Shown here piece by piece: positions 2,021 through 19,617 of a DNA stretch of 64,000 nt. The translations under genes and the position numbers were made by a program. This stretch comes from Lacipirellulaceae bacterium (lineage in GTDB: Bacteria > Planctomycetota > Planctomycetia > Pirellulales > Lacipirellulaceae). The notes under the pieces are model-generated. The model was given only the letters and a program-made list of their open reading frames with translations. It was not told where the DNA came from and did not search any database. Positions within the stretch are counted from its first letter, which is position 1. Each line of letters starts with the position of its first letter. The stretch spans positions 744,001 to 808,000 of the forward strand of contig JAVJRG010000012.1 of assembly GCA_040218535.1 (NCBI GenBank). The letters are read 5' to 3'.

Positions 2021-3040
2021 ATGCACGCCTTCGGCCAACGTCTCCGACAGCTTCGCATTGATGCCGGGCTGGGGCTCCGTACGTTTGCTCAACTGGTCGA
2101 CCAGCGGGCTTCGGTCGTGTCGGCCGTTGAATCAGGGCGACGGGGGCCGTGGCGGGATGAGGAGATTCTTTTGCAAGTCGCCAATGTGCTTGGCGTCGAG
2201 GAAAGAGTCCTTGAAGAAGCGGACTCCATTTCCGACGAGTTTCGCCCGGACGATGATTGGTCTTTGGACCCAATCTCTCGACTGCACTCTTGGGTGCTCT
2301 CGCCAGCCGCTTCTGCCGCGGGCGGTGAGTTCGATGACGAGGCACAAACAGAACTGACCGAAACGCTCGGCGTCCAACCGCCCACTCTTGGCGAGCAAGA
2401 CGGCTTCCAAGAAACACAGCCCCTGACAGACTTGGCGGTCGAGTGGCAAGCGCGGCGACTGACAGCGCGCCTCTCAACTCCTGTAGATGTTGAAGCCGCT
2501 TTGGAAAGAAACGGAGTACGACTGGAAATCGTCGCTGGGTTAGTGCCACGGTACAGCGTTCAAGCCTGCGTCACTTGCGAGGAGCCTGATCAGGAGGATC
2601 CATCCTCTTCATCAACGATCTGGATTGATCGGACGATTGCCGACAGTCACCCGATCGCTTCGTATCGATTGCTCCTAGCACGCGCCTACGCGCCACTTGC
2701 ACTGAGAAGTGAGAATCTTCAAGATCGAGACGCGAAGGCGTTTGCGCTTGCCATGTTGTTGCCCGCGGCTCCGCTTCAAGCCGCCGCCGAAACGGCCTAC
2801 ACGGACTACGTCGACCGCCACGGCTGGCTTTCTCCCGGAATCATGAAACAATACCTGTGCAACCAACTCGCCGAAGCGTTTGCCGCCCCACCCCACTTGA
2901 TCGCCCAAAGATTAGACGGCTGGCCCTGCCCTATCACACCCCGCCTTGAATTGGCACTCGAGACAAGAGAACGCACCCTACCACCGACTGATTGGGAGCG
3001 TTCCCCAGAACCAGCCGAGCAGATGTTGCTGTTCACGTGA
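2021..3040 (+). CDS. XRE-family regulator with a degenerate ImmA/IrrE-like C-terminal domain
   Basis: The protein has 339 residues. Residues about 4-60 form an XRE helix-turn-helix (FGQRLRQLRIDAGLGLRTFA, then a VSAVESGRRG recognition segment). The C-terminal half follows the layout of the ImmA/IrrE zinc peptidases often fused to such domains: a hydrophobic helix at residues about 212-227 (SYRLLLARAYAPLAL) sits where the HExxH helix is expected, and AFALAMLLP at about 240-248 matches the later conserved helix usually written FAAELLMP. The zinc-binding His and Glu are absent, so peptidase activity is unlikely. Family members control prophage or mobile-element repressors or stress genes; here no phage genes lie nearby. 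The function is inferred: a DNA-binding regulator with a pseudo-peptidase sensor. The fusion assignment rests on pattern reading alone. Confidence 0.7.
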   Translation: MHAFGQRLRQLRIDAGLGLRTFAQLVDQRASVVSAVESGRRGPWRDEEILLQVANVLGVEERVLEEADSISDEFRPDDDWSLDPISRLHSWVLSPAASAAGGEFDDEAQTELTETLGVQPPTLGEQDGFQETQPLTDLAVEWQARRLTARLSTPVDVEAALERNGVRLEIVAGLVPRYSVQACVTCEEPDQEDPSSSSTIWIDRTIADSHPIASYRLLLARAYAPLALRSENLQDRDAKAFALAMLLPAAPLQAAAETAYTDYVDRHGWLSPGIMKQYLCNQLAEAFAAPPHLIAQRLDGWPCPITPRLELALETRERTLPPTDWERSPEPAEQMLLFT

Positions 3041-3059
3041 TGGGTGGCCCCATGAGTAT

Positions 3060-3097
3060 CCCGCGCGAGCCAACTCCAAAGTCGTTGTGCTCGCGGG
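3060..3097. terminator. Imperfect hairpin after the XRE gene
   Basis: Arms CCCGCGCGAGCCAAC and GTTGTGCTCGCGGG pair imperfectly, starting 19 bases after the XRE stop codon. There is no clear U-tract. It may be a terminator or a small palindromic repeat. Confidence 0.4.
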
Positions 3098-3216
3098 CTA
3101 GCCGAGTCGTTCGTTCTTTGAGATTCAAACTTGCACCGGTACGTTTGCCTTGGCCAAAGGTGTAAAATGAAGCTCCTAAGTCACTGCCCCCTGCCGACTG
3201 CACCCTGTCCACTCCT

Positions 3217-4869
3217 ATGACTAAAGCCTCTGATCTTTTCATCCAAGCCCTCGAAAACGAAGGCGTGGAGTATCTCTTCGGCATCCCTGGCGAAGAGAAT
3301 CTCGACATGCTTGAGTCGCTCTCGAAGAGCTCGATCAAACTTGTCCTCACTCGCCACGAGCAAGCCGCTGGCTTCATGGCGGCTACCTACGGACGACTGA
3401 CGGGCAAGGCGGGAGTTTGCCTTTCGACGCTTGGCCCGGGGGCGACCAACTTCGTAACCGCGGCCGCCTACGCGAACCTCGGCGCGATGCCGATGGTAAT
3501 GATCACTGGCCAAAAACCGATCAAGACCAGCAAGCAAGGGCAGTTTCAGATCGTCGACATCGTCGACACGATGCAACCACTCACGAAGTTCGCCAAGCAA
3601 GTCGAAAGCGCGGATATGATCCCGGCTCGCGTCCGCGAAGCGTTTCGGCTAGCACAAGAGGAGCGACCCGGAGCGACGCATCTTGAATTGCCGGAGGACA
3701 TCGCCAAAGAAATGACCGACGCCCCCGTCCTGGAGCCAAGCTTCACCCGTCGACCCGTTGCCGATGATAAAGCAATCCGCAAAGCGGCCGAAGTGATCGC
3801 TGCGGCCAAGCATCCGTTGTTGTTGGTCGGTGCGGGGGCGAATCGTAAGCTCACTTGCCGGATGCTCCGCAAGTTTGTGGAGGACACGAATATTCCTTTC
3901 GTTACTACTCAAATGGGCAAAGGTGTCCTTGGCGAGAACAACCCGCGTTGGCTCGGCAACGCTGCCCTCTCAGACAACGATTACGTCCACCGTGCGATCG
4001 ATGCGGCTGACGCGATTATCAACGTGGGGCATGACGTGGTCGAAAAGCCACCGTTCTTCATGCGTCCGGGCGGACGGACGGTTCTGCATATCAATTTCAC
4101 CTCCGCCCAGGTCGACCCGGTTTACTTCCCCCAGGTGGAAGTCATCGGCGACATTGCGAACAGCGTATGGCAGATTGGCGAAAAACTCAGCGAAATGAAA
4201 GCCGACTGCTGCTGGGATTTCACCTTCTTCGAGAAAGTCCAAGCGGCTCTCCAAGAGCAATTGGCCGAGGGAGCCGACGATCCACGCTTCCCCATTTACC
4301 CGCAACGACTCGTCGCCGACGTTCGCAAGGTGATGACCGACCGCGACGTTATCGCCTTGGACAACGGCGTCTACAAACTGTGGTTTGCAAGGAACTACCC
4401 TGGGTATTTCTCCAACACCGTACTTCTAGATAACGCTCTGGCCACGATGGGTGCCGGACTCCCCTCAGCCATGGCCGCCCGCATGGTTCATCCGGATCGC
4501 AAAGTGATGGCCATCTGCGGCGACGGAGGCTTCATGATGAACTCCGCGGAAATCGAAACGGCTGTGCGGTTAAAGCTCGACTTGGTCGTCGTCATCCTCC
4601 GCGACAACGCCTATGGCATGATCAAGTGGAAGCAAGATCACGAAGGCTTCAGCGACTACGGCCTCGACTTCGACAACCCTGACTTCGTGAAGTACGCCGA
4701 AAGCTACGGAGCTCACGGCCACTTGATCGAGTCCGCCGACGCGTTCATCCCCACTGTCGAGAAAGCCTACGCCGCAGGCGGTGTTCACGTCGTCGATGTG
4801 CCGGTGGATTACTCGGAGAATGTGAAGATCCTGAATGAAGAGATTCCACGACGGAGTGCTGCTCTCTAG
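3217..4869 (+). CDS. Acetolactate synthase large subunit (thiamine diphosphate enzyme)
   Basis: A 550-residue thiamine diphosphate-dependent enzyme that condenses two pyruvate molecules into acetolactate in the cytoplasm. It shows the full three-domain layout: the N-terminal pyrimidine-binding domain with catalytic glutamate E48 in TRHEQAAGFMA, the glycine-rich GPGATN segment, a central domain, and the C-terminal cofactor domain with GDGG at residues 435-438 and DNAYGM near 464. No regulatory small subunit (ilvN/ilvH) is adjacent, and the next gene is an aldehyde dehydrogenase, which suggests a catabolic or overflow role more than branched-chain amino-acid synthesis. The bases just before the ATG (3182-3216) form a C-rich low-complexity run that looks repeat-derived. 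A related decarboxylase of the same superfamily cannot be fully excluded. Confidence 0.88.
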   Translation: MTKASDLFIQALENEGVEYLFGIPGEENLDMLESLSKSSIKLVLTRHEQAAGFMAATYGRLTGKAGVCLSTLGPGATNFVTAAAYANLGAMPMVMITGQKPIKTSKQGQFQIVDIVDTMQPLTKFAKQVESADMIPARVREAFRLAQEERPGATHLELPEDIAKEMTDAPVLEPSFTRRPVADDKAIRKAAEVIAAAKHPLLLVGAGANRKLTCRMLRKFVEDTNIPFVTTQMGKGVLGENNPRWLGNAALSDNDYVHRAIDAADAIINVGHDVVEKPPFFMRPGGRTVLHINFTSAQVDPVYFPQVEVIGDIANSVWQIGEKLSEMKADCCWDFTFFEKVQAALQEQLAEGADDPRFPIYPQRLVADVRKVMTDRDVIALDNGVYKLWFARNYPGYFSNTVLLDNALATMGAGLPSAMAARMVHPDRKVMAICGDGGFMMNSAEIETAVRLKLDLVVVILRDNAYGMIKWKQDHEGFSDYGLDFDNPDFVKYAESYGAHGHLIESADAFIPTVEKAYAAGGVHVVDVPVDYSENVKILNEEIPRRSAAL

Positions 4870-10498: not shown

Positions 10499-11755
10499 AT
10501 GCACATCCGCCGGACCAGTTTCTATATCGCTTTGTTTTTTTTGTTCAGTCCGCAACTTCTACTGGCGAAGAGCGATCTTTGGCCTCAGTGGCGGGGACCG
10601 CAACGGGATGGGCAGGCGGTGGAAGAGGATGCGGCTTGGCCGGAGAAGCTTGACGAGGGGATGCTCGTTGAAAAGTGGCGGAAACCGTTTGGGCCGAGCT
10701 ACTCCGGCCCCATCGTCACGGCTGACCGCGTGTTCACGACCGAAACGCGCGGTGAGAAGCAGGAGTACGTTTTCGCATTGAATCGCAAGACAGGCGACCA
10801 GCTCTGGGAGCAACACTGGGACGGGGCGATGAAGGTCCCCTTCTTTGCCGCCAGCAACGGTAGTTGGATTCGCGCCACGCCGGCATACGATGCCCAAAGC
10901 GACCGGCTCTACGTCGCCGGCATTCAGGATGTGCTGGTTTGCGTTGATGCAAAAACTGGCGAGAAAGTCTGGAGCGTCGACTTCAAAGAAAAATACGGCA
11001 CGCCTAATCCAGCTTTCGGTTTCGCTTCGTCGCCGCTCGTGGATGGGGATGCCGTCTACGTGCAAGCGGCAGAGTCGTTCATCAAAGTCGACAAGAACAG
11101 CGGCGACATCCTCTGGCGAACGGCTGTCGAAGAAGGCCGCATGAACTCCGCCTTTTCTTCGCCAACAATTGCCACTGTCGCCGGAGTTCGGCAGTTGCTG
11201 GTGCAAATGCGGAACGACCTGAAAGGAATCAGCATCGACGACGGTAAGGAACTTTGGTCGCAGCCGATTCAGGCGTTCCGAGGAATGAACATCCTCACGC
11301 CACTAGTCGTCGGCGAGAGCACGCTCTTCACTAGCGCTCACAGTGGCCGATCGCAGTTGTGGCAGATCAAGCCCTCCGGCGATGGCGCATTCGCTGCAAC
11401 TGAAGTGTGGCAAGCAAAGGCGAAAGCCTACATGTCGTCCCCGGTGATCGTCGGTGATTTCCTCTACATGCACTTACAAAACCAACGGTTCACATGCCTC
11501 GACCTCAAGACCGGCGAGGAGAAGTGGCGTACGAAGCCCTTCGGAAAGTATTGGTCAATGGTCGCCCAAGGAGACAAGATTTTGGCTCTCGACGAGACGG
11601 GTGATCTACGGCTGATCAGAGCGAATCCCGAAAAGTATGACCTGCTTGACGAACGGCACATCACCGACGCTAGCAGTTGGGCGCACGTGGCCGTCGTCGG
11701 TGGCGAGGTGTTTGTGCGAACGCTGGATGAGCTGATTGCTTACCGGTGGGAGTAG
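10499..11755 (+). CDS. Secreted PQQ-like beta-propeller repeat protein
   Basis: A 418-residue exported protein. The ATG at 10499 gives a clean signal peptide (MHIRRTSFYIALFFLF, cut after LLLA); the longer in-frame start at 10421 lies within an inverted repeat and is unlikely. After LWPQWRGPQRDG, a hallmark of planctomycete PQQ-type propellers, the chain shows repeated blades with KTGxxxW motifs (RKTGDQLWE, AKTGEKVWS, NSGDILWR, KTGEEKWR). Such proteins resemble BamB or quinoprotein dehydrogenase propellers, but no catalytic or PQQ-binding residues can be asserted, so it may be a binding scaffold. Its 3' end overlaps the convergent subtilase-like gene by 16 bp. A paralogue lies at 39912-41204. 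Confidence 0.82.
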   Translation: MHIRRTSFYIALFFLFSPQLLLAKSDLWPQWRGPQRDGQAVEEDAAWPEKLDEGMLVEKWRKPFGPSYSGPIVTADRVFTTETRGEKQEYVFALNRKTGDQLWEQHWDGAMKVPFFAASNGSWIRATPAYDAQSDRLYVAGIQDVLVCVDAKTGEKVWSVDFKEKYGTPNPAFGFASSPLVDGDAVYVQAAESFIKVDKNSGDILWRTAVEEGRMNSAFSSPTIATVAGVRQLLVQMRNDLKGISIDDGKELWSQPIQAFRGMNILTPLVVGESTLFTSAHSGRSQLWQIKPSGDGAFAATEVWQAKAKAYMSSPVIVGDFLYMHLQNQRFTCLDLKTGEEKWRTKPFGKYWSMVAQGDKILALDETGDLRLIRANPEKYDLLDERHITDASSWAHVAVVGGEVFVRTLDELIAYRWE

Positions 11756-13326
11756 CTACTCCGATGGCGTCGTCGCTTTGACAAGGCGGCTAAGCTGCAA
11801 GCGGCTAGCAGTAGAGCGCTCGGTTCGGGGATCGTGGTGATTTGCCATGCGAGGGCATAATCCCAATCGACGCTTGAGGTCGAAGTCACTCTTAATTCGT
11901 AGATGCTTCCCGCAACCAGGCCGTCAAAATAGAGGTTCTCCGTGTTGTGGATCAGGCTGTTGGACGACGCAACCACGACTTCGGAAACAGGAACTGTGAC
12001 GTCGACAAGCTCTAAGTTGAAGTCGTTGACCGTTGTTGTCAGCGAGGCACCAACAAGGTCCACCTTGGCATTCCAGGCGAGGGTTGTTTGCAGAAGATCG
12101 CCATCTTTGGCAGCAATAAACCGGTAGGTGCCGGTAGCGTTTGAGCCCCCAGCCCCACCGAAGCTCGGATCGTAATCCCAACCACGATCACCAATCGCCA
12201 CCGAGAGGCCATCTTCGACGCTATCTTGCTCGCCAGCGGCCAGAATGTTGTAACTATTGAAGATGTTCATCTGGCCAGCACCGTAATCGAGATCCAGATT
12301 GTTCGTCGTATCGACGGTGTAATCGGTGAGATCTGTGAAGGCCGGATCTCGGAAGCCTGTCACGTGCCGATCAGTTCCAGCCATCAGCACCGCTTTGATC
12401 ACTTCGGAAGTTTCCGCGTGATTGATCGTCCGCGTCCGGTTGGTGATCGTTCCATTAGACAGCGCCGCGGCTTGTCCCGTCTCTAACAGCAATGCTGAGG
12501 CTGCTGAGACCATCGGCGCCGCCCAGCTTGTTCGCTGTAAGTTGTTATCAAAACGAAAGCCGGGCGTCACCAAATCAGGAGCTTGGCGACCTGCAATATA
12601 GGTCGAATTAAGAGCGGTCGTTCCCTCGACGTGATTGCCATTGGTAAGGCCGACAGAGATTTCATTGTACGCATCTTTGAGCAGCGGCTGATTGGCACCG
12701 CTGTTGGGAACTCCAGCGACCACGATGAGGTCGTCCTGCTCGACAATGAAATCAGTCCGCTGCAAAGCGTTGATCGTATCCGAAGCGTTGGGAAAAGCAC
12801 CGATCCAGCTATGGTTCGAAACCCGTGCCGTCGTCACCACCGGTGCACTTGCGGTCCCACGACGCAGGAAACCGTTGGCAAGCCAGTGATTCGCTTCGAA
12901 GACATCAATCGTGCTGATCCCAGGAGCGATGGAGTTCGTGTTGCCAAAGAAATTGCGTCCAACGGTCGAAGAGTGCGGCGAAGTTCCGCCATCTGCTGAA
13001 GGGGCTCCGGCAATGAGCGTCTCGTTGGTAAGTGTCTTGCCGACGAACTCGCCGCTGGAAGGGAAGTAGTGGCCCGCACTTGGTCCGCTGGCGATTTCAG
13101 CCTCAACCTGTTGAACTTCGATGCTGCTACCCGTGGGAATCGAGCCACCAAGTTGCGACTGCAATTCAGGGAAGCCCATGAGGTCGTTGTAAGTGGCTTC
13201 CGAGAGAGAAGCTGCCGAGAGACTCGCGGCAAGGCTAAGGAAAAGAACGCGGCCCCACGGCAAAAGATTTGCGCGCAGAACGCTTGCGCGGCTGGTAGAG
13301 AAAGCTAGCGATCGTGTCCGGGTCAT
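11740..13326 (-). CDS. Subtilase-like (S8) PEP-CTERM protein
   Basis: A 528-residue exported protein with an N-terminal hydrophobic signal segment (about residues 24-44). It resembles family S8 serine peptidases: the histidine region SPHSSTVGRNFFG (H118), an oxyanion-type Asn in VSNHSWIG (N171), and the serine motif RTSWAAPMVSAASALLLE (S267, the family's GTSxAAP). No convincing catalytic Asp is seen in the N-terminal strand, where the family has DTG or DSG; the local sequence is IEVQQVEAEI. The C terminus is a beta-rich domain followed by the PEP-CTERM tail TIPEPSALLLAACSLAALS with a basic end. It could be a protease with a displaced Asp or an inactive relative. It is convergent with the beta-propeller gene. 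Confidence 0.72.
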   Translation of the reverse strand: MTRTRSLAFSTSRASVLRANLLPWGRVLFLSLAASLSAASLSEATYNDLMGFPELQSQLGGSIPTGSSIEVQQVEAEIASGPSAGHYFPSSGEFVGKTLTNETLIAGAPSADGGTSPHSSTVGRNFFGNTNSIAPGISTIDVFEANHWLANGFLRRGTASAPVVTTARVSNHSWIGAFPNASDTINALQRTDFIVEQDDLIVVAGVPNSGANQPLLKDAYNEISVGLTNGNHVEGTTALNSTYIAGRQAPDLVTPGFRFDNNLQRTSWAAPMVSAASALLLETGQAAALSNGTITNRTRTINHAETSEVIKAVLMAGTDRHVTGFRDPAFTDLTDYTVDTTNNLDLDYGAGQMNIFNSYNILAAGEQDSVEDGLSVAIGDRGWDYDPSFGGAGGSNATGTYRFIAAKDGDLLQTTLAWNAKVDLVGASLTTTVNDFNLELVDVTVPVSEVVVASSNSLIHNTENLYFDGLVAGSIYELRVTSTSSVDWDYALAWQITTIPEPSALLLAACSLAALSKRRRHRSSYSHR

Positions 13327-13909: not shown

Positions 13910-15940
13910 CTAGTAACGTAGGCCTTTAGCTGCAGGTTGCTGCCAACTGGAATTGGATCGCTCAGGATATTTCGCGGAAGTTACCTGCACTTGCGGTTCC
14001 TTCAGATAGTCTGACAAGTGTGTTTTGATCAGCTCCTCGGCCTCCAAGAGCGATTTACCGGCAACCTTCACGCGTCCGTACATCGGCCCCAAGGCTACGG
14101 TCCCCATCGGTTCCACCGCGTAGTTTCCACTTATCGGTGCCTCAGGCAGCGTCCCAATCGCTTGAATGTTAATCGTCTCGCCGGGATCAATTTTTCCGTT
14201 GCTTGCTTTTTGAGCGAAGGGATCTGACCCAAACGATGGTTGTGGGACGGCACCGACAGTGACCCTTGAAGACTGGGCTGGGCGTGCGTCCAAGGCATCA
14301 GGAGCAGCTTGATACTGCATTGTATTGTCTCTTGGCACAGGCGTCGCATCGTAAGTGTAATTCTTGAGGTCTCCGGCTTGCCGTCTCACTGCCGGCTGCG
14401 GCGGGTTCTCTTGCAGTCGCTTTTCAAGCTTCTCTACCCGTTCGATTTGCTTGAGCCGACCGGCCAACTCCTCAACTTTCGACTCGCACAGTTTCACCTC
14501 AGCATGAAGCAGCGTAGCTTCGACCAGTAATTCGCGTTGTTGGAAAGCACTACCAGTTGCGTTTTCCTTCATTGCCGCAGCCCGATTCTCTTTGAGGTCT
14601 GCTTGATTGCTAAGTCCTTCAGCCTTTAGCGCCCAGTATTGACGCTCCAACTCCAACTGCTTCTTCCCACCCGCGGGCAACTCGATAGCCGACCCCATCT
14701 TGATAGATGCGGGTGCGGCGTAAGTTGGCTCGAAGGGGGTTGGAGCGGCCACAGTCCAATCAGGCATCGGCATAGGTTTTCGAAAAGAACTGTCGAACGA
14801 CTGCGGTGGTTGTGAAGGTGCTACGATTGCCGATCCGGGCTTCTTCACTTCCAGATCGTCGAAAGCATCTAGTTCGACCGCTGGTGGCGGGCTATCCGCC
14901 GGAATGGGCTTCGCTACCTCGTCGATTTCAACAAACCTTCTTGCCGGGCGACTTGGCTGCAAGGGGGCATCAACTTCTGCCGCCTCGTGGACCGTCGACT
15001 TCGTCTCATTCGCCGCCAGTAAGTCAACCGCAGCGCTTGCGGTTTCGCCGCGTGAAGTTATTGAAACATCCTCCTTAGCGTTCACCTGCGTCAACAACAC
15101 GGCAGCCAAGGCCACGGCAAGCACTCCCGCGGCCGGTTTCATCATCGTCGCAACAGTCATAGCAGCGATCCCTTTATGGGCTAGAGAACCGACAACTTGA
15201 GCGCCGTCGGGAAGTGGTAATTTGGTGCGAAACGCGAGTGCTAGTCCGGCAGTCCCTGCCGGGAGTGCAAGGGGCAGCGTCGCCGCGGAAGCTTCAAACG
15301 CTGTGGCGGTGACAGCCATCGCCGCGGAGAGTGCCACGCCCCGCCGGGCCAGTCGGCTCCGCAACATTCCGCGAGCCCTAGCTAGACGTCCTTTGACTGC
15401 CGCAGTGGTGCAACCGAGCTCCTCAGCAATCGCGGCCCGCGACTTCGCTTCGAAGTAGTGGAGTATCAAGGGGCGCTGATAGCGTGCTGGCAGTGCGTGT
15501 AGCTCTTCCATCAACGCAGAAGTCTGTTCACTCGCGGCAACCGCACTCAGTTGATCTTGGTAATTAGGTTGCTCATCGGCTGCCAACTCACCCAGTTGCT
15601 CCTGTGCTAGCGACTCTTCTCGTCGCCGTCTCCGCCGTTCTTTCAATCGCAACGCGGTTCGAAATGCCACGCGATAGAGCCAAGCCGCGGCTGAGTCGTT
15701 CGCTTTAATCGTGTGCGCCTTGCGAGCCAGAATGAGAAACGTCGCTTGAAAAGCATCCTCGGCATCTTGCCGCTGCCTGAGGATCTGCCAGCAGACAGAC
15801 CAGACGAGCGTGGAGTGCGACTCAACCACCTCTGCAAACGCCGCTTCATCCCGATGCCTGACGAAGCGCATCAGCCGCTCGCCATCGGTCGGCGGAATCG
15901 CCTGCGTCGCGGGCGTGCTTTCGGTAAGTAAGTCGTACAT
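13910..15940 (-). CDS. ECF sigma factor fused to a membrane segment and a polysaccharide-export (Poly_export) domain
   Basis: A 676-residue fusion. Residues about 23-100 form sigma-70 region 2 (SVCWQILRQRQDAEDAFQATFLILARKA is the core helix area) and about 145-200 form region 4 (LPARYQRPLILHYFEAKS, then a helix-turn-helix with TTAAVKGRLARARG). Hydrophobic stretches follow at about 205-235 and 268-288. Next comes a long low-complexity, Pro- and Ala-rich region with a helical part around residues 420-500 that may form a coiled coil. The last hundred residues match a polysaccharide biosynthesis/export domain (DPGETINIQAIG, then VALGPMYGRVKVAGKSLLEAE and YLKEPQVQV). Planctomycete ECF sigma factors with long C-terminal extensions are known. 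The topology implies a membrane-held sigma factor whose extracytoplasmic tail senses an envelope or polymer state; that is inference. Confidence 0.82.
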   Translation of the reverse strand: MYDLLTESTPATQAIPPTDGERLMRFVRHRDEAAFAEVVESHSTLVWSVCWQILRQRQDAEDAFQATFLILARKAHTIKANDSAAAWLYRVAFRTALRLKERRRRRREESLAQEQLGELAADEQPNYQDQLSAVAASEQTSALMEELHALPARYQRPLILHYFEAKSRAAIAEELGCTTAAVKGRLARARGMLRSRLARRGVALSAAMAVTATAFEASAATLPLALPAGTAGLALAFRTKLPLPDGAQVVGSLAHKGIAAMTVATMMKPAAGVLAVALAAVLLTQVNAKEDVSITSRGETASAAVDLLAANETKSTVHEAAEVDAPLQPSRPARRFVEIDEVAKPIPADSPPPAVELDAFDDLEVKKPGSAIVAPSQPPQSFDSSFRKPMPMPDWTVAAPTPFEPTYAAPASIKMGSAIELPAGGKKQLELERQYWALKAEGLSNQADLKENRAAAMKENATGSAFQQRELLVEATLLHAEVKLCESKVEELAGRLKQIERVEKLEKRLQENPPQPAVRRQAGDLKNYTYDATPVPRDNTMQYQAAPDALDARPAQSSRVTVGAVPQPSFGSDPFAQKASNGKIDPGETINIQAIGTLPEAPISGNYAVEPMGTVALGPMYGRVKVAGKSLLEAEELIKTHLSDYLKEPQVQVTSAKYPERSNSSWQQPAAKGLRY

Positions 15941-16105
15941 GGAAAGTTGTTCGCCGACGGCCTTGGTCGTCGTGCACGATGGAACAGATCTGAGGTGCTG
16001 CTAATAAGATAGAGTCGCGATGAGGAGAAGCGGCCCTCGAATTTTGCCAGGAAAAGCGAAAACATCGTGTTTTCACGGCAAATTCGCGGCGACCAAGGTC
16101 GTCGG

Positions 16106-16675
16106 CTAACTTTTCAGCGACACCCGAGGCACGACGCGTTCTGCTTCGCTAGCAAGCTCGAAGTAATCGGCTCGCTCAAAGCCAAACATTCCGGCAATGA
16201 CGTTCGAGGGAAAGCTTTCGCAGAGCTGATTCATCTCGCGGACGTTGCCATTGTAAAACCGTCGAGCCGCGGCAATGCGGTCTTCGGTGTTTGCCAGCTC
16301 GGTTTGGAGAGCCAAAAACTGCGTGTCAGACTTCAACTGCGGATAGCCCTCGACCAAGGCGAACAATTTTTTCATGCCGATGGCCAGTGCCGTTTCGTCC
16401 ACCCCCTGCTGCGTCGGCGTGCCGTGGCTTTGGCTAGCGCGGGTGCGCAGTTCGGCAATTTCGCTCAACACTTCTTTCTCATGGGCAGCATACCCTTTGA
16501 CGCAAGCCAAGAGGTTGGGGATCAACTCGTACCGCCGTCGCATCTCGACATCGATGTCCGACCAGCTTTCGAGCAAGTGCTGCCGTACTCGCGCAAAGCG
16601 GTTGTAGTTAGCGATGACAAACAGTCCCAGAAGAAAGAGGACGCCGAGCGGTATGAAGACGGGAGCGTATTGCAT
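16106..16675 (-). CDS. LemA family protein
   Basis: A 189-residue protein with an N-terminal transmembrane helix (residues about 4-22, VFIPLGVLFLLGLFVIANYN) and the LemA signature: ARVRQHLLESWSDIDVEMRRR, then YELIPNLLACVKGYAAHEKEVL, and a C-terminal segment with NGNVREMNQLCESFPSNVIA. LemA proteins are membrane-anchored helical proteins of unclear biochemistry, often next to other membrane proteins. The start is the ATG at 16675; a TTG lies two codons upstream. It is the last of three same-strand genes (17844 to 16106), probably one operon. Confidence 0.9.
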   Translation of the reverse strand: MQYAPVFIPLGVLFLLGLFVIANYNRFARVRQHLLESWSDIDVEMRRRYELIPNLLACVKGYAAHEKEVLSEIAELRTRASQSHGTPTQQGVDETALAIGMKKLFALVEGYPQLKSDTQFLALQTELANTEDRIAAARRFYNGNVREMNQLCESFPSNVIAGMFGFERADYFELASEAERVVPRVSLKS

Positions 16676-16735
16676 GGTCAAGAATATAGCCGAGGGAACA
16701 TGCCTTGACGAAGATGGCGAGCCTGCGTTCTCGCC

Positions 16736-16786: not shown

Positions 16787-17521
16787 CTAAACTCGCGCCT
16801 TGCTTTCAAAATCAGCTATCAGGTGCTGCGGCCACAAAGAGAAAAACTCTTGAGACCACTGTAAGTGCGTGAGAAACTCCTCCGGTTTCCAGATGCCTCC
16901 TTCTTGGATGCACAGCCAACCTTGCTGAACATCGATGATTGGCCCGCGACGGTTCAACAGAAACTCCATCATCCGGGGATGAACTAGGTCGTAGGCAAAG
17001 CGCTTGTCTTGGCTCTTCACATGGAACTTGTCGCTGAACTCCGCGGACTCGAAATCGATGTCGTCGAAGCCAAAGAAGCTGCCCACGCGATCAAAGAAAT
17101 GCTCCGGGCGAATCGTCAAACTTGGTACGCCGCTAAGAGGAATCTCAACCACCAGATAACTTCTATGGTGGTGGGTCGTCTTGGACTTGCCCTTGGAATC
17201 GGTTGATCGGGTCGCGTAATGGTAATCACCCATCTGCGCGGACTGCAGGCCCAAGGGCGTCTCGATCTGGCCGACAAGCGTGTTGTATGCGAAGCGATTT
17301 GATCCACGCCTGAACAGATCGAACTGGGCGAAGCGCTCGTCATGCCCATGATCCCGAGCTTGTGTGTATACCCACCCGAGCGAATCGGCCAACTGCGACA
17401 AAGCCGCCCGCCGTTTCTTGGCCGCCTGGTGAGAATAGTATCCCAACACGCCGAAGATCAAGACAAGCAGCACGATGAGTACAATTGCCAAAGTGGGCAC
17501 CCACCTTCCGAACTGGATCAT
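16787..17521 (-). CDS. Membrane-anchored protein of unknown function in the LemA group
   Basis: A 244-residue protein from the ATG at 17521; a TTG at 17542 would add seven residues. One N-terminal transmembrane helix (about residues 7-28, LAIVLIVLLVLIFGVLG) is followed by a basic patch and a soluble domain. That domain has aromatic-rich strands (DLFRRGSNRFAYNTLVG, DKFHVKSQDKRFAYDL) like those of DUF3137-type proteins, which commonly sit beside LemA. I do not recognise a catalytic motif. It lies in a run of three leftward genes, 111 bp upstream of lemA. Confidence 0.7.
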   Translation of the reverse strand: MIQFGRWVPTLAIVLIVLLVLIFGVLGYYSHQAAKKRRAALSQLADSLGWVYTQARDHGHDERFAQFDLFRRGSNRFAYNTLVGQIETPLGLQSAQMGDYHYATRSTDSKGKSKTTHHHRSYLVVEIPLSGVPSLTIRPEHFFDRVGSFFGFDDIDFESAEFSDKFHVKSQDKRFAYDLVHPRMMEFLLNRRGPIIDVQQGWLCIQEGGIWKPEEFLTHLQWSQEFFSLWPQHLIADFESKARV

Positions 17522-17559
17522 GCTGTCGAGATCACTGGGCAAAGGCTAGGCCTCAAATA

Positions 17560-18189: not shown

Positions 18190-19617
18190 GTGGCGCCCTC
18201 CTCACAGTCTAACGCTGGCTCACAATCTGAAGCCGAGAAGAGTGCGAAACCCTGGGGTGGAGTCTTCGACGGACAAACCGCGCCGTTGGTTGAAAAGTTT
18301 ACGGAAAGCGTTTCTTACGACCAAAGGCTCTACACCCAGGACATCCGCGGCAGCGTCGCTCACGCGCAGATGCTCGCCACGACGGGCGTGCTAACTGAGG
18401 ACGAAGCCGCTCAGATCGTCACCGGCCTCGAAGAGATCGGTCGCGAGATCGCTGCCGGCACGTTCGTCTTTCGGCAAGATCTCGAAGATGTTCACATGAA
18501 CATCGAACGAGCCCTCGTCGAGCAAATCGGCGACGTCGGTCGCAAACTGCACACGGGACGGAGCCGCAACGATCAAGTCTCAACCGATTTTCGTCTCTGG
18601 ATTCGCGAAGCAATCGATCGGGCCGATCGACTGTTAGGCGATCTCCAACGGGCTTTCGTGAGCCGCTGTGATCAAGACGCGGGAGTCATTTTGCCTGGGT
18701 ACACACATCTGCAGCGCGCTCAGCCCGTGTTGGCCAATCACTATTGGCTGGCCTATTGCGAGAAGTTCCAACGTGACCGTGACCGGCTTGCCGACTGCAG
18801 AAAAAGAGTGAATCAACTTTCGCTCGGAACTGCCGCGATGGCGGGGACGACGATCGACATTGATCGCCAGCACGTCGCCGAGGCTTTGGAGTTTGAAGGG
18901 CTCGTTGCCAACAGCCTCGATTCCTCGAGCGATCGCGACTACGCCATCGAGTTCGCCTTCGCGCTGACACTGATTGCCGAACACCTCAGCACCTTGGCCG
19001 AGGAATGGATTCTGTGGTCCACCGTTGAGTTCCGCTTTATTAAGCTGCCCCAGGATTACTGCACGGGCAGCTCGATCATGCCACAGAAGATCAACCCGGA
19101 TGTGATGGAGCTCATCCGCGGCAAGACGGCCCGCGTGGTGGGCAATCTGCAGGCCCTTCTCGTACTCGTGAAGGGCCTGCCGCTCGCTTACAACCGTGAT
19201 CTTCAAGAAGATAAAGAGCGTGTGTTTGATTCGGCCGACACGGTTGAAGCCTGCCTCGAATTGGCCGCCGCCGTGGTTGCAGGTGCCGAGCTGCAAGTGG
19301 AGGCGATCAACGAACGACTCGAACGAGGCTACCTCGACGCGACGACGCTGATGGAACACCTCATCAAGCTCGATGTTCCCCAACGAACCGCTCACGAGAT
19401 CATCGGCAACCTCGTTGCCAAGGCCATGAAGCAAGATGTACCGCTGGCCGATTTGCCGTTAGAGACTTTCCAAGAAGCCCACCCTGCCCTCGATGAGTCC
19501 GTTTACGAAGTCCTCGGTGTGGAACGCGCCGTTGCCGCGTTCCGCAGCGTCGGCTCAACGGCCCCAGACCGCGTCGCTGAGCAAGTCGCCAAGTGGCAGC
19601 AGCGGTTGAAAGCGTAA
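18190..19617 (+). CDS. argH: Argininosuccinate lyase
   Basis: A 475-residue cytoplasmic enzyme that splits argininosuccinate into arginine and fumarate, the last step of arginine synthesis. It shows the fumarase/aspartase superfamily signature [12 protein letters not shown] near residue 295, the substrate-binding segment [16 protein letters not shown] near 121, and the N-terminal PWGGVFDG. The length is typical. The start is a GTG at 18190; about 20 residues precede the conserved PWGG. It is apparently transcribed alone, with repeat clusters on both sides. Confidence 0.96.

Follow-up and report, generated by a model that had tools for sequence, protein, structure and literature searches.

Our analysis shows that one gene of a Lacipirellulaceae bacterium joins an ECF sigma factor, a transmembrane (TM) helix and a Poly_export (PES) domain in a single open reading frame, and that ahead of the TM helix this gene carries a Shine-Dalgarno (SD)-like sequence and an in-frame ATG of a kind conserved in its relatives. 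The best explanation, to which we give a probability of roughly 0.6, is a membrane-tethered ECF sigma factor with a PES envelope sensor, whose gene would also yield, from the internal start, a product with the sensor only. The DNA analysed is a stretch of 64,000 nucleotides (the window), in whose coordinates the gene and the parts of its protein are the following:

13910..15940, minus strand: whole gene, open frame for the 676-aa ECF sigma-TM-PES protein
15623..15826, minus strand: sigma-70 region 2, aa 39-106 (PF04542 Sigma70_r2, Pfam E 3.8e-10)
15368..15517, minus strand: sigma-70 region 4, aa 142-191 (PF08281 Sigma70_r4_2, Pfam E 5.7e-12)
15227..15331, minus strand: two helices between sigma region 4 and the TM helix, aa 204-238 (AlphaFold2 model)
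15092..15148, minus strand: transmembrane helix, aa 265-283 (hydropathy; helix in the model)
14210..15091, minus strand: linker, aa 284-577, proline-rich and partly coiled-coil-like as judged by eye
13979..14209, minus strand: Poly_export/PES domain, aa 578-654 (PF02563 and OPX fold match)

Architecture of the sigma-PES protein

The fusion is real. As an earlier note on this DNA had read it, the frame is unbroken (open-reading-frame check) and Pfam places the sigma and PES domains within it. An assembly artefact is argued against, since another species of the genus (locus L039, Poly_export at 55.1 bits) and a member of a different genus in the family (L040, at 51.9 bits) share this architecture; the earlier note had proposed to look for such a recurrence.

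The sigma domains are region 2 and region 4 only, and the protein matches the sigma70-ECF profile TIGR02937 (NCBIfam) at 82.4 bits, above the curated cut-off of 42.9, which places it among the ECF sigma factors. The best Foldseek match of this part is SigW bound to the anti-sigma RsiW. In the AlphaFold2 model of residues 1-300 (56 aligned rows, mean pLDDT 88.2) both sigma domains, the helices that follow and the TM helix are modelled. The earlier note had spoken of hydrophobic stretches in the plural; of these, one stands as the sole predicted membrane segment, residues 265-283, with a Kyte-Doolittle value of 1.88 over 19 residues (no other segment exceeds 1.6) and a position inside one continuous long helix (245-288), while the preceding hydrophobic stretch, 204-238, is modelled as two short non-TM helices (204-221 and 225-238) after sigma region 4. 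A VIA-align structure match spans residues 16-202 and has these two helices outside its reach. The linker gave no Pfam match at E<=1 and is weakly conserved across a four-row alignment.

The export-domain profile in the C-terminal part, on which the earlier note had let its reading depend, was found: PF02563 matches over profile positions 3-75 of 77 with E 9.5e-13 and 48.6 bits (cutoff 28). Residues 566-659 match the polysaccharide export protein 9n9a (phmmer against PDB, E 8.8e-5). For the C-terminal 131 residues, a model built on two sequences has a mean pLDDT of 68.9 with a confident domain core, and in Foldseek ranks 1-10 of the predicted PES domain are all OPX/Wza chains, with nothing else below E 0.001; the top match is the class-3 OPX WzaB (9n9a, E 7.2e-6). 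Beyond residue 211, Poly_export is the only Pfam match at E<=1, and an SLBB-type C-terminal domain is not among the matches.

Planctomycetota often have ECF sigma factors with C-terminal extensions, whose control, according to the reviews consulted, is largely unexplored. Planctomycete ECF57 proteins belong to the same phylum and have, like the window protein, long C-terminal extensions (PMC8999054, PMC8567305), and some Tuwongella immobilis ECFs were recovered in detergent fractions (PMC8567305); ECF57 bears WD40 repeats (PMC8999054), whereas the window protein has PES and the conserved internal SD and ATG. The actinobacterial ECF52, ECF53 and ECF48 (e.g. SCO4117) resemble the window protein in their C-terminal TM fusion with an extracytoplasmic domain; SCO4117 has a proline-rich part and a carbohydrate-binding domain, and proteolysis has been proposed (PMC8999054). 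These groups have a zinc-finger domain, while in the window protein no zinc-finger anti-sigma domain was matched by Pfam at E<=1 between the sigma part and the TM helix; neither a PES module nor an internal start is described for them in the available part of PMC8999054. For TM-fused ECF48/52/53 activation by proteolysis is expected, and it has been demonstrated for IutY of Pseudomonas putida (ECF243), a sigma fused to a membrane anti-sigma and freed by Prc and RseP (PMC8999054). IutY, like the window protein, unites sigma and sensor in a single membrane protein, but it serves iron cell-surface signalling and has no PES. The class-3 OPX WzaB (9n9a) and Wza share the PES fold with the window protein; they are exporters, whereas the window protein has one terminal PES and an N-terminal sigma factor. 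The fusion adds a new PES variant to the membrane-tethered ECF sigma factors already known to have C-terminal extensions. Its partner had been unfamiliar to the earlier note as well, and among the matches listed in the open-licence literature, which takes in few subscription journals, we found neither a sigma-PES fusion nor an internal start in an ECF gene.

Extension modules at the sigma locus

Four genes near the sigma gene serve as landmarks for the comparison with other genomes:

11740-13326, minus strand: S8-peptidase-like protein
16106-16681, minus strand: LemA
16787-17542, minus strand: DUF3137 match, sub-threshold
18190-19617, plus strand: argininosuccinate lyase (argH)

In the regions that were fetched, the same genus (L039) is the only place where the LemA, DUF3137-like and S8-like neighbours are seen again, and argininosuccinate lyase is present in 12 of 29 family sigma regions, some of which stop at contig ends. 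The S8-like gene adjoins the sigma gene in L039 too; the C-terminus of its product in the window (PEPSALLL...KRRRH) resembles a PEP-CTERM sorting tail. The nine neighbouring frames scanned hold no anti-sigma domain, in agreement with the earlier note, which had done without a separate anti-sigma factor.

The family set consists of 30 sigma+TM proteins, the window protein included, scanned with Pfam. Poly_export is above cutoff in four of them (window, L039, L040 and L054) and below it in L059 (27.3 bits, just under), L056 (20.2) and L050 (18.0). PG_binding_1 is above cutoff in nine (L041, L044, L045, L052-L056 and L058), Thioredoxin_7 in one (L047) and FG-GAP in one (L067), and the remaining proteins have no module above cutoff. 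These other modules occupy the same part of the protein as PES, and in most relatives listed a hydrophobic segment follows sigma region 4 at a similar distance. At the argH-linked locus itself we found PES (window, L039), PG_binding_1 (L041, L045, L052, L053 and L055), a thioredoxin-like module (L047) or no module above cutoff (L042, L043, L046, L051 and L057). To judge from this synteny, the sigma gene stays at the argH-linked locus while its extension is replaced, and PES counts among several modules that can be exchanged. The largest extension that drew our attention is at the argH-linked locus of L055 (2874-9692, minus strand), where a 2272-aa sigma+TM protein carries three PG_binding_1 stretches and Big_5.

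These comparisons bear on the exopolysaccharide signal proposed in the earlier note: the PES domain is there, but at this locus peptidoglycan-binding or thioredoxin-like modules take its place in other genomes. Since PES is only one variant among them, it is safer to read the protein as an extracytoplasmic envelope sensor.

In the sigma-domain tree (57 rows: family frames, L183, L112 and part of the further pattern-search loci) the window and L039 are sisters (100/99) inside a 24-row clade (100/95) that includes L183. The latter (L183:3168-6707, minus strand), from outside the family, encodes an ECF sigma with one TM helix and tandem PES in 1179 aa, with five PES copies by a custom profile and six stretches by Pfam. 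A Gemmataceae MAG (L112) has sigma and PES in 439 aa and is the only one of 79 loci with both by custom profiles. PES presence requires seven changes over the 57 rows, which fits gain or loss. The family search also brought up many short ECFs without extension, which, to the extent that their low identity allows a judgement, fall into other sigma groups. Split sigma/sensor pairs were sought at ten loci where a stop falls close to the end of the sigma match, and set aside as not the fused family: all ten hold a short ECF frame (177-239 aa), and of the next same-strand frames, seen at seven, four begin anti-sigma-like as judged by eye.

PES also occurs on other signalling proteins. A search with the PES part gave matches in 169 of 296 genomes of the order, most of the frames listed being exporter-sized. 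Among the long frames fetched, PES follows the peptidase part of M56 (BlaR1-type) proteins in 12 genomes (L069, L070, L071, L072, L184, L185 and L190-L195; called by Pfam for seven proteins and by a custom profile for the other five), and it is joined to Ser/Thr kinase parts in two (L182 and L186, the L186 frame holding only part of the kinase). The L182 protein (2495-4798, plus strand) has the kinase, a TM helix, Secretin_N and two PES domains, and a frame matching the sigma profile lies directly upstream of it. Because PES ends three kinds of signalling protein, a sensing role is favoured over a structural role in export, and PES would acquire a signalling role outside export. The PES-domain tree (83 columns) has little resolution; the sigma-fused copies are intermingled with the M56 copies and do not make up a single clade, which is consistent with module shuffling but short of proof.

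The most serious alternative, which we nevertheless regard as improbable, is that PES functions as a component of a polysaccharide export complex and that the tethered sigma reports the assembly or traffic of this machine. The full PES domain with its OPX fold would suit such a part, and the source genome encodes other PES proteins and Wzz-family proteins. For comparison we used the usual exporter layout: an N-terminal export signal, further C-terminal domains (SLBB) and an export gene cluster. The window protein opens instead with a sigma domain, and the nine neighbouring frames that we scanned include no export gene. The unrelated modules of the orthologues at the same locus, and the presence of PES on M56 and kinase membrane proteins, also speak against it.

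A putative internal start ahead of the membrane helix

Three further features lie within the sigma gene:

15158..15160, minus strand: conserved internal ATG, M261 (Met conserved in relatives)
15170..15175, minus strand: SD-like AAAGGG, 9 nt upstream of the ATG
13910..15160, minus strand: proposed short product of 416 aa, with a TM or signal-peptide-like start, the linker and PES

In the relatives a Met stands ahead of the TM helix, followed by positive residues and then the hydrophobic core, and in their DNA an SD-like GGAG or AAGG often precedes this Met. We pooled the earlier and the replication sets into 183 sigma+TM planctomycete proteins, excluding repeats of one sigma stretch and tails of less than 60 aa and requiring a hydrophobic segment of 17 residues that scores at least 1.6. 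Of the 183, 150 have a Met within a 19-residue interval where the TM core begins, against 49.3 expected from composition, a frequency that may be slightly inflated as the query patterns of one search included the stretch around M261. GGAG lies ahead of the conserved Met in 83 of these 150, when 33.1 would be expected from synonymous codon choice. The excess is placed at -18..-7 from the ATG (83 vs 27.6 expected) and is absent at -24..-19 (1 vs 7.8); a smaller one at +30..+59 (21 vs 12.9) is unexplained.

With synonymous shuffles within each gene, an SD core precedes the conserved Met in 92 of 104 cases (63.0 expected) and other internal Mets in 175 of 873 (183.9 expected, no excess). Duplex energy averages -6.8 in the set and -3.3 at other internal Mets, the window's own site being weaker than the set mean at -5.1; both the energy and the 92/104 analyses gave preference to a Met that has a Gly upstream, a choice that biases them towards SD-like sites. 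Where Gly codons stand immediately ahead of the Met, GGA is used in 81 of 107, compared with 16% elsewhere. In the family proteins the SD core is present in 30 of 30 (20.3 expected), whichever module follows. GGAG is found in each of the three codon phases (49, 11 and 4 cases) and spans differing residues (EGV, QEL, PEV, NWS), and is thus kept at the nucleotide level, beyond what the protein alone would demand.

The pooled and replication tests picked the Met blind to the sequence upstream. The replication set, phylum-wide, comprises 69 later-fetched proteins, of which 40 have a Met in the strict window and 29 do not, several of these carrying one just outside; the phylum-wide query may reach its source protein's Met, which could raise the Met frequency slightly but leaves the synonymous-codon test unaffected. 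Here again GGAG (21/40 vs 8.8) and any SD core (28/40 vs 21.7) exceed expectation at the conserved Met, while other Mets stay close to it (43/375 vs 44.1 and 92/375 vs 88.3). After thinning by sigma identity, GGAG is found in 28 of 58 proteins below 50% (11.9 expected) and 15 of 34 below 45% (6.6 expected); below 40% the excess, 4 of 19 against 2.8, is not significant. On these codon statistics the internal SD and start are conserved beyond protein constraint. Among the matches listed in the phylum-wide search, only two rows have an open frame below 280 aa (194 and 222). So few short frames indicate that the fused product seems to be under selection too, which argues for two products and against a mis-annotated gene pair. 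Together, the sequences suggest that the gene may yield a tethered sigma and a sigma-free sensor, anchored or exported. A signal peptidase site was considered as proof of export and dropped: A.A is not enriched (77/150 vs 79.5 shuffled), and with stricter forms at 75 vs 62.0 and 54 vs 39.3 the sites are not clearly enriched, which leaves export with cleavage unproven.

It could be argued that only the full-length tethered sigma is made and that the SD-like sequence, which lies immediately ahead of the TM helix, slows the ribosome for sigma folding and membrane insertion. We find this unlikely. Pausing requires no ATG, yet the GGAG excess is limited to proteins with the Met (97 vs 49.3 expected overall in the 150; 7 vs 7.6 in the small group of 33 without it), and the distance from SD to ATG has its maxima at 8 and 11 nt. 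It is still less probable that the sigma is permanently tethered and active at the membrane, either with no release or constitutively; the lack of an anti-sigma domain in the flanking genes scanned would agree with this, but long extracytoplasmic modules undergoing exchange suggest a signal input. Least credible is that SD and ATG are leftovers from the joining of a sigma gene to a gene downstream that coded for an exported protein, only the fusion mattering now: the Met, positive charge and hydrophobic core do look like a signal peptide and extensions are exchanged among relatives, but the SD is kept at synonymous positions below 50% identity and in all 30 family proteins with the Met, with any module.

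A proposed tethered sigma factor and sensor-only product

We propose that the sigma part is cytoplasmic and tethered to the membrane, with no separate anti-sigma gene alongside, and that segment 204-238, or the membrane itself, may keep it idle. Past the flexible linker, the extracytoplasmic PES would sense the state of the envelope, most likely polysaccharide or an exporter, and a signal on this side could change or free the sigma by intramembrane proteolysis or by a conformational change. Site-2-type proteases are encoded in the source genome, but also in 14 of 14 control genomes, and are hence uninformative. From the SD-preceded internal ATG, the same gene would also give an anchored or exported sensor without sigma, which might set the sensor:sigma ratio, permit mixed oligomers or act as a decoy. 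The direct coupling by fusion claimed in the earlier note is supported in part: the architecture stands, but the account would be incomplete, as the conserved internal RBS-like site and ATG suggest two products.

PES forms rings in Wza. We hypothesize, with slightly less assurance than for the gene of the window, that many membrane-extended ECF sigmas of Planctomycetota are dual-product genes in which the internal SD and ATG give a sigma-free sensor; PES products could form rings with few sigma subunits, so that one sigma reports on a multimeric sensor, and the modules would be exchanged at a fixed locus and be common to M56 and kinase receptors. That the short product may form mixed oligomers is suggested by analogy with two-polypeptide phage endolysins, in which an in-frame internal start gives a shorter C-terminal partner, in one case within a 1:5 heteromer (PMC9430671). 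These are phage enzymes with both products shown experimentally, whereas here the short product is deduced from sequence. If confirmed experimentally, the internal start would be a larger result than the fusion: a whole class of annotated fusions would encode two proteins, the sensor could be studied separately from the sigma, and stoichiometry would become a testable layer of control.

The region upstream of the sigma gene was also inspected. An exact ECF-type promoter pattern was found upstream of 0 of 19 genes scanned, the window gene among them, and autoregulation is accordingly unsupported. The gap between lemA and the sigma gene is for the most part bracketed by a 17-bp inverted pair, CGACCAAGGYCGTCGGC, at 15953-15969 (minus strand) and 16090-16106 (plus strand), the only two exact copies genome-wide, which is a possible operator or terminator. 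A core resembling it lies directly ahead of the sigma start in L039.
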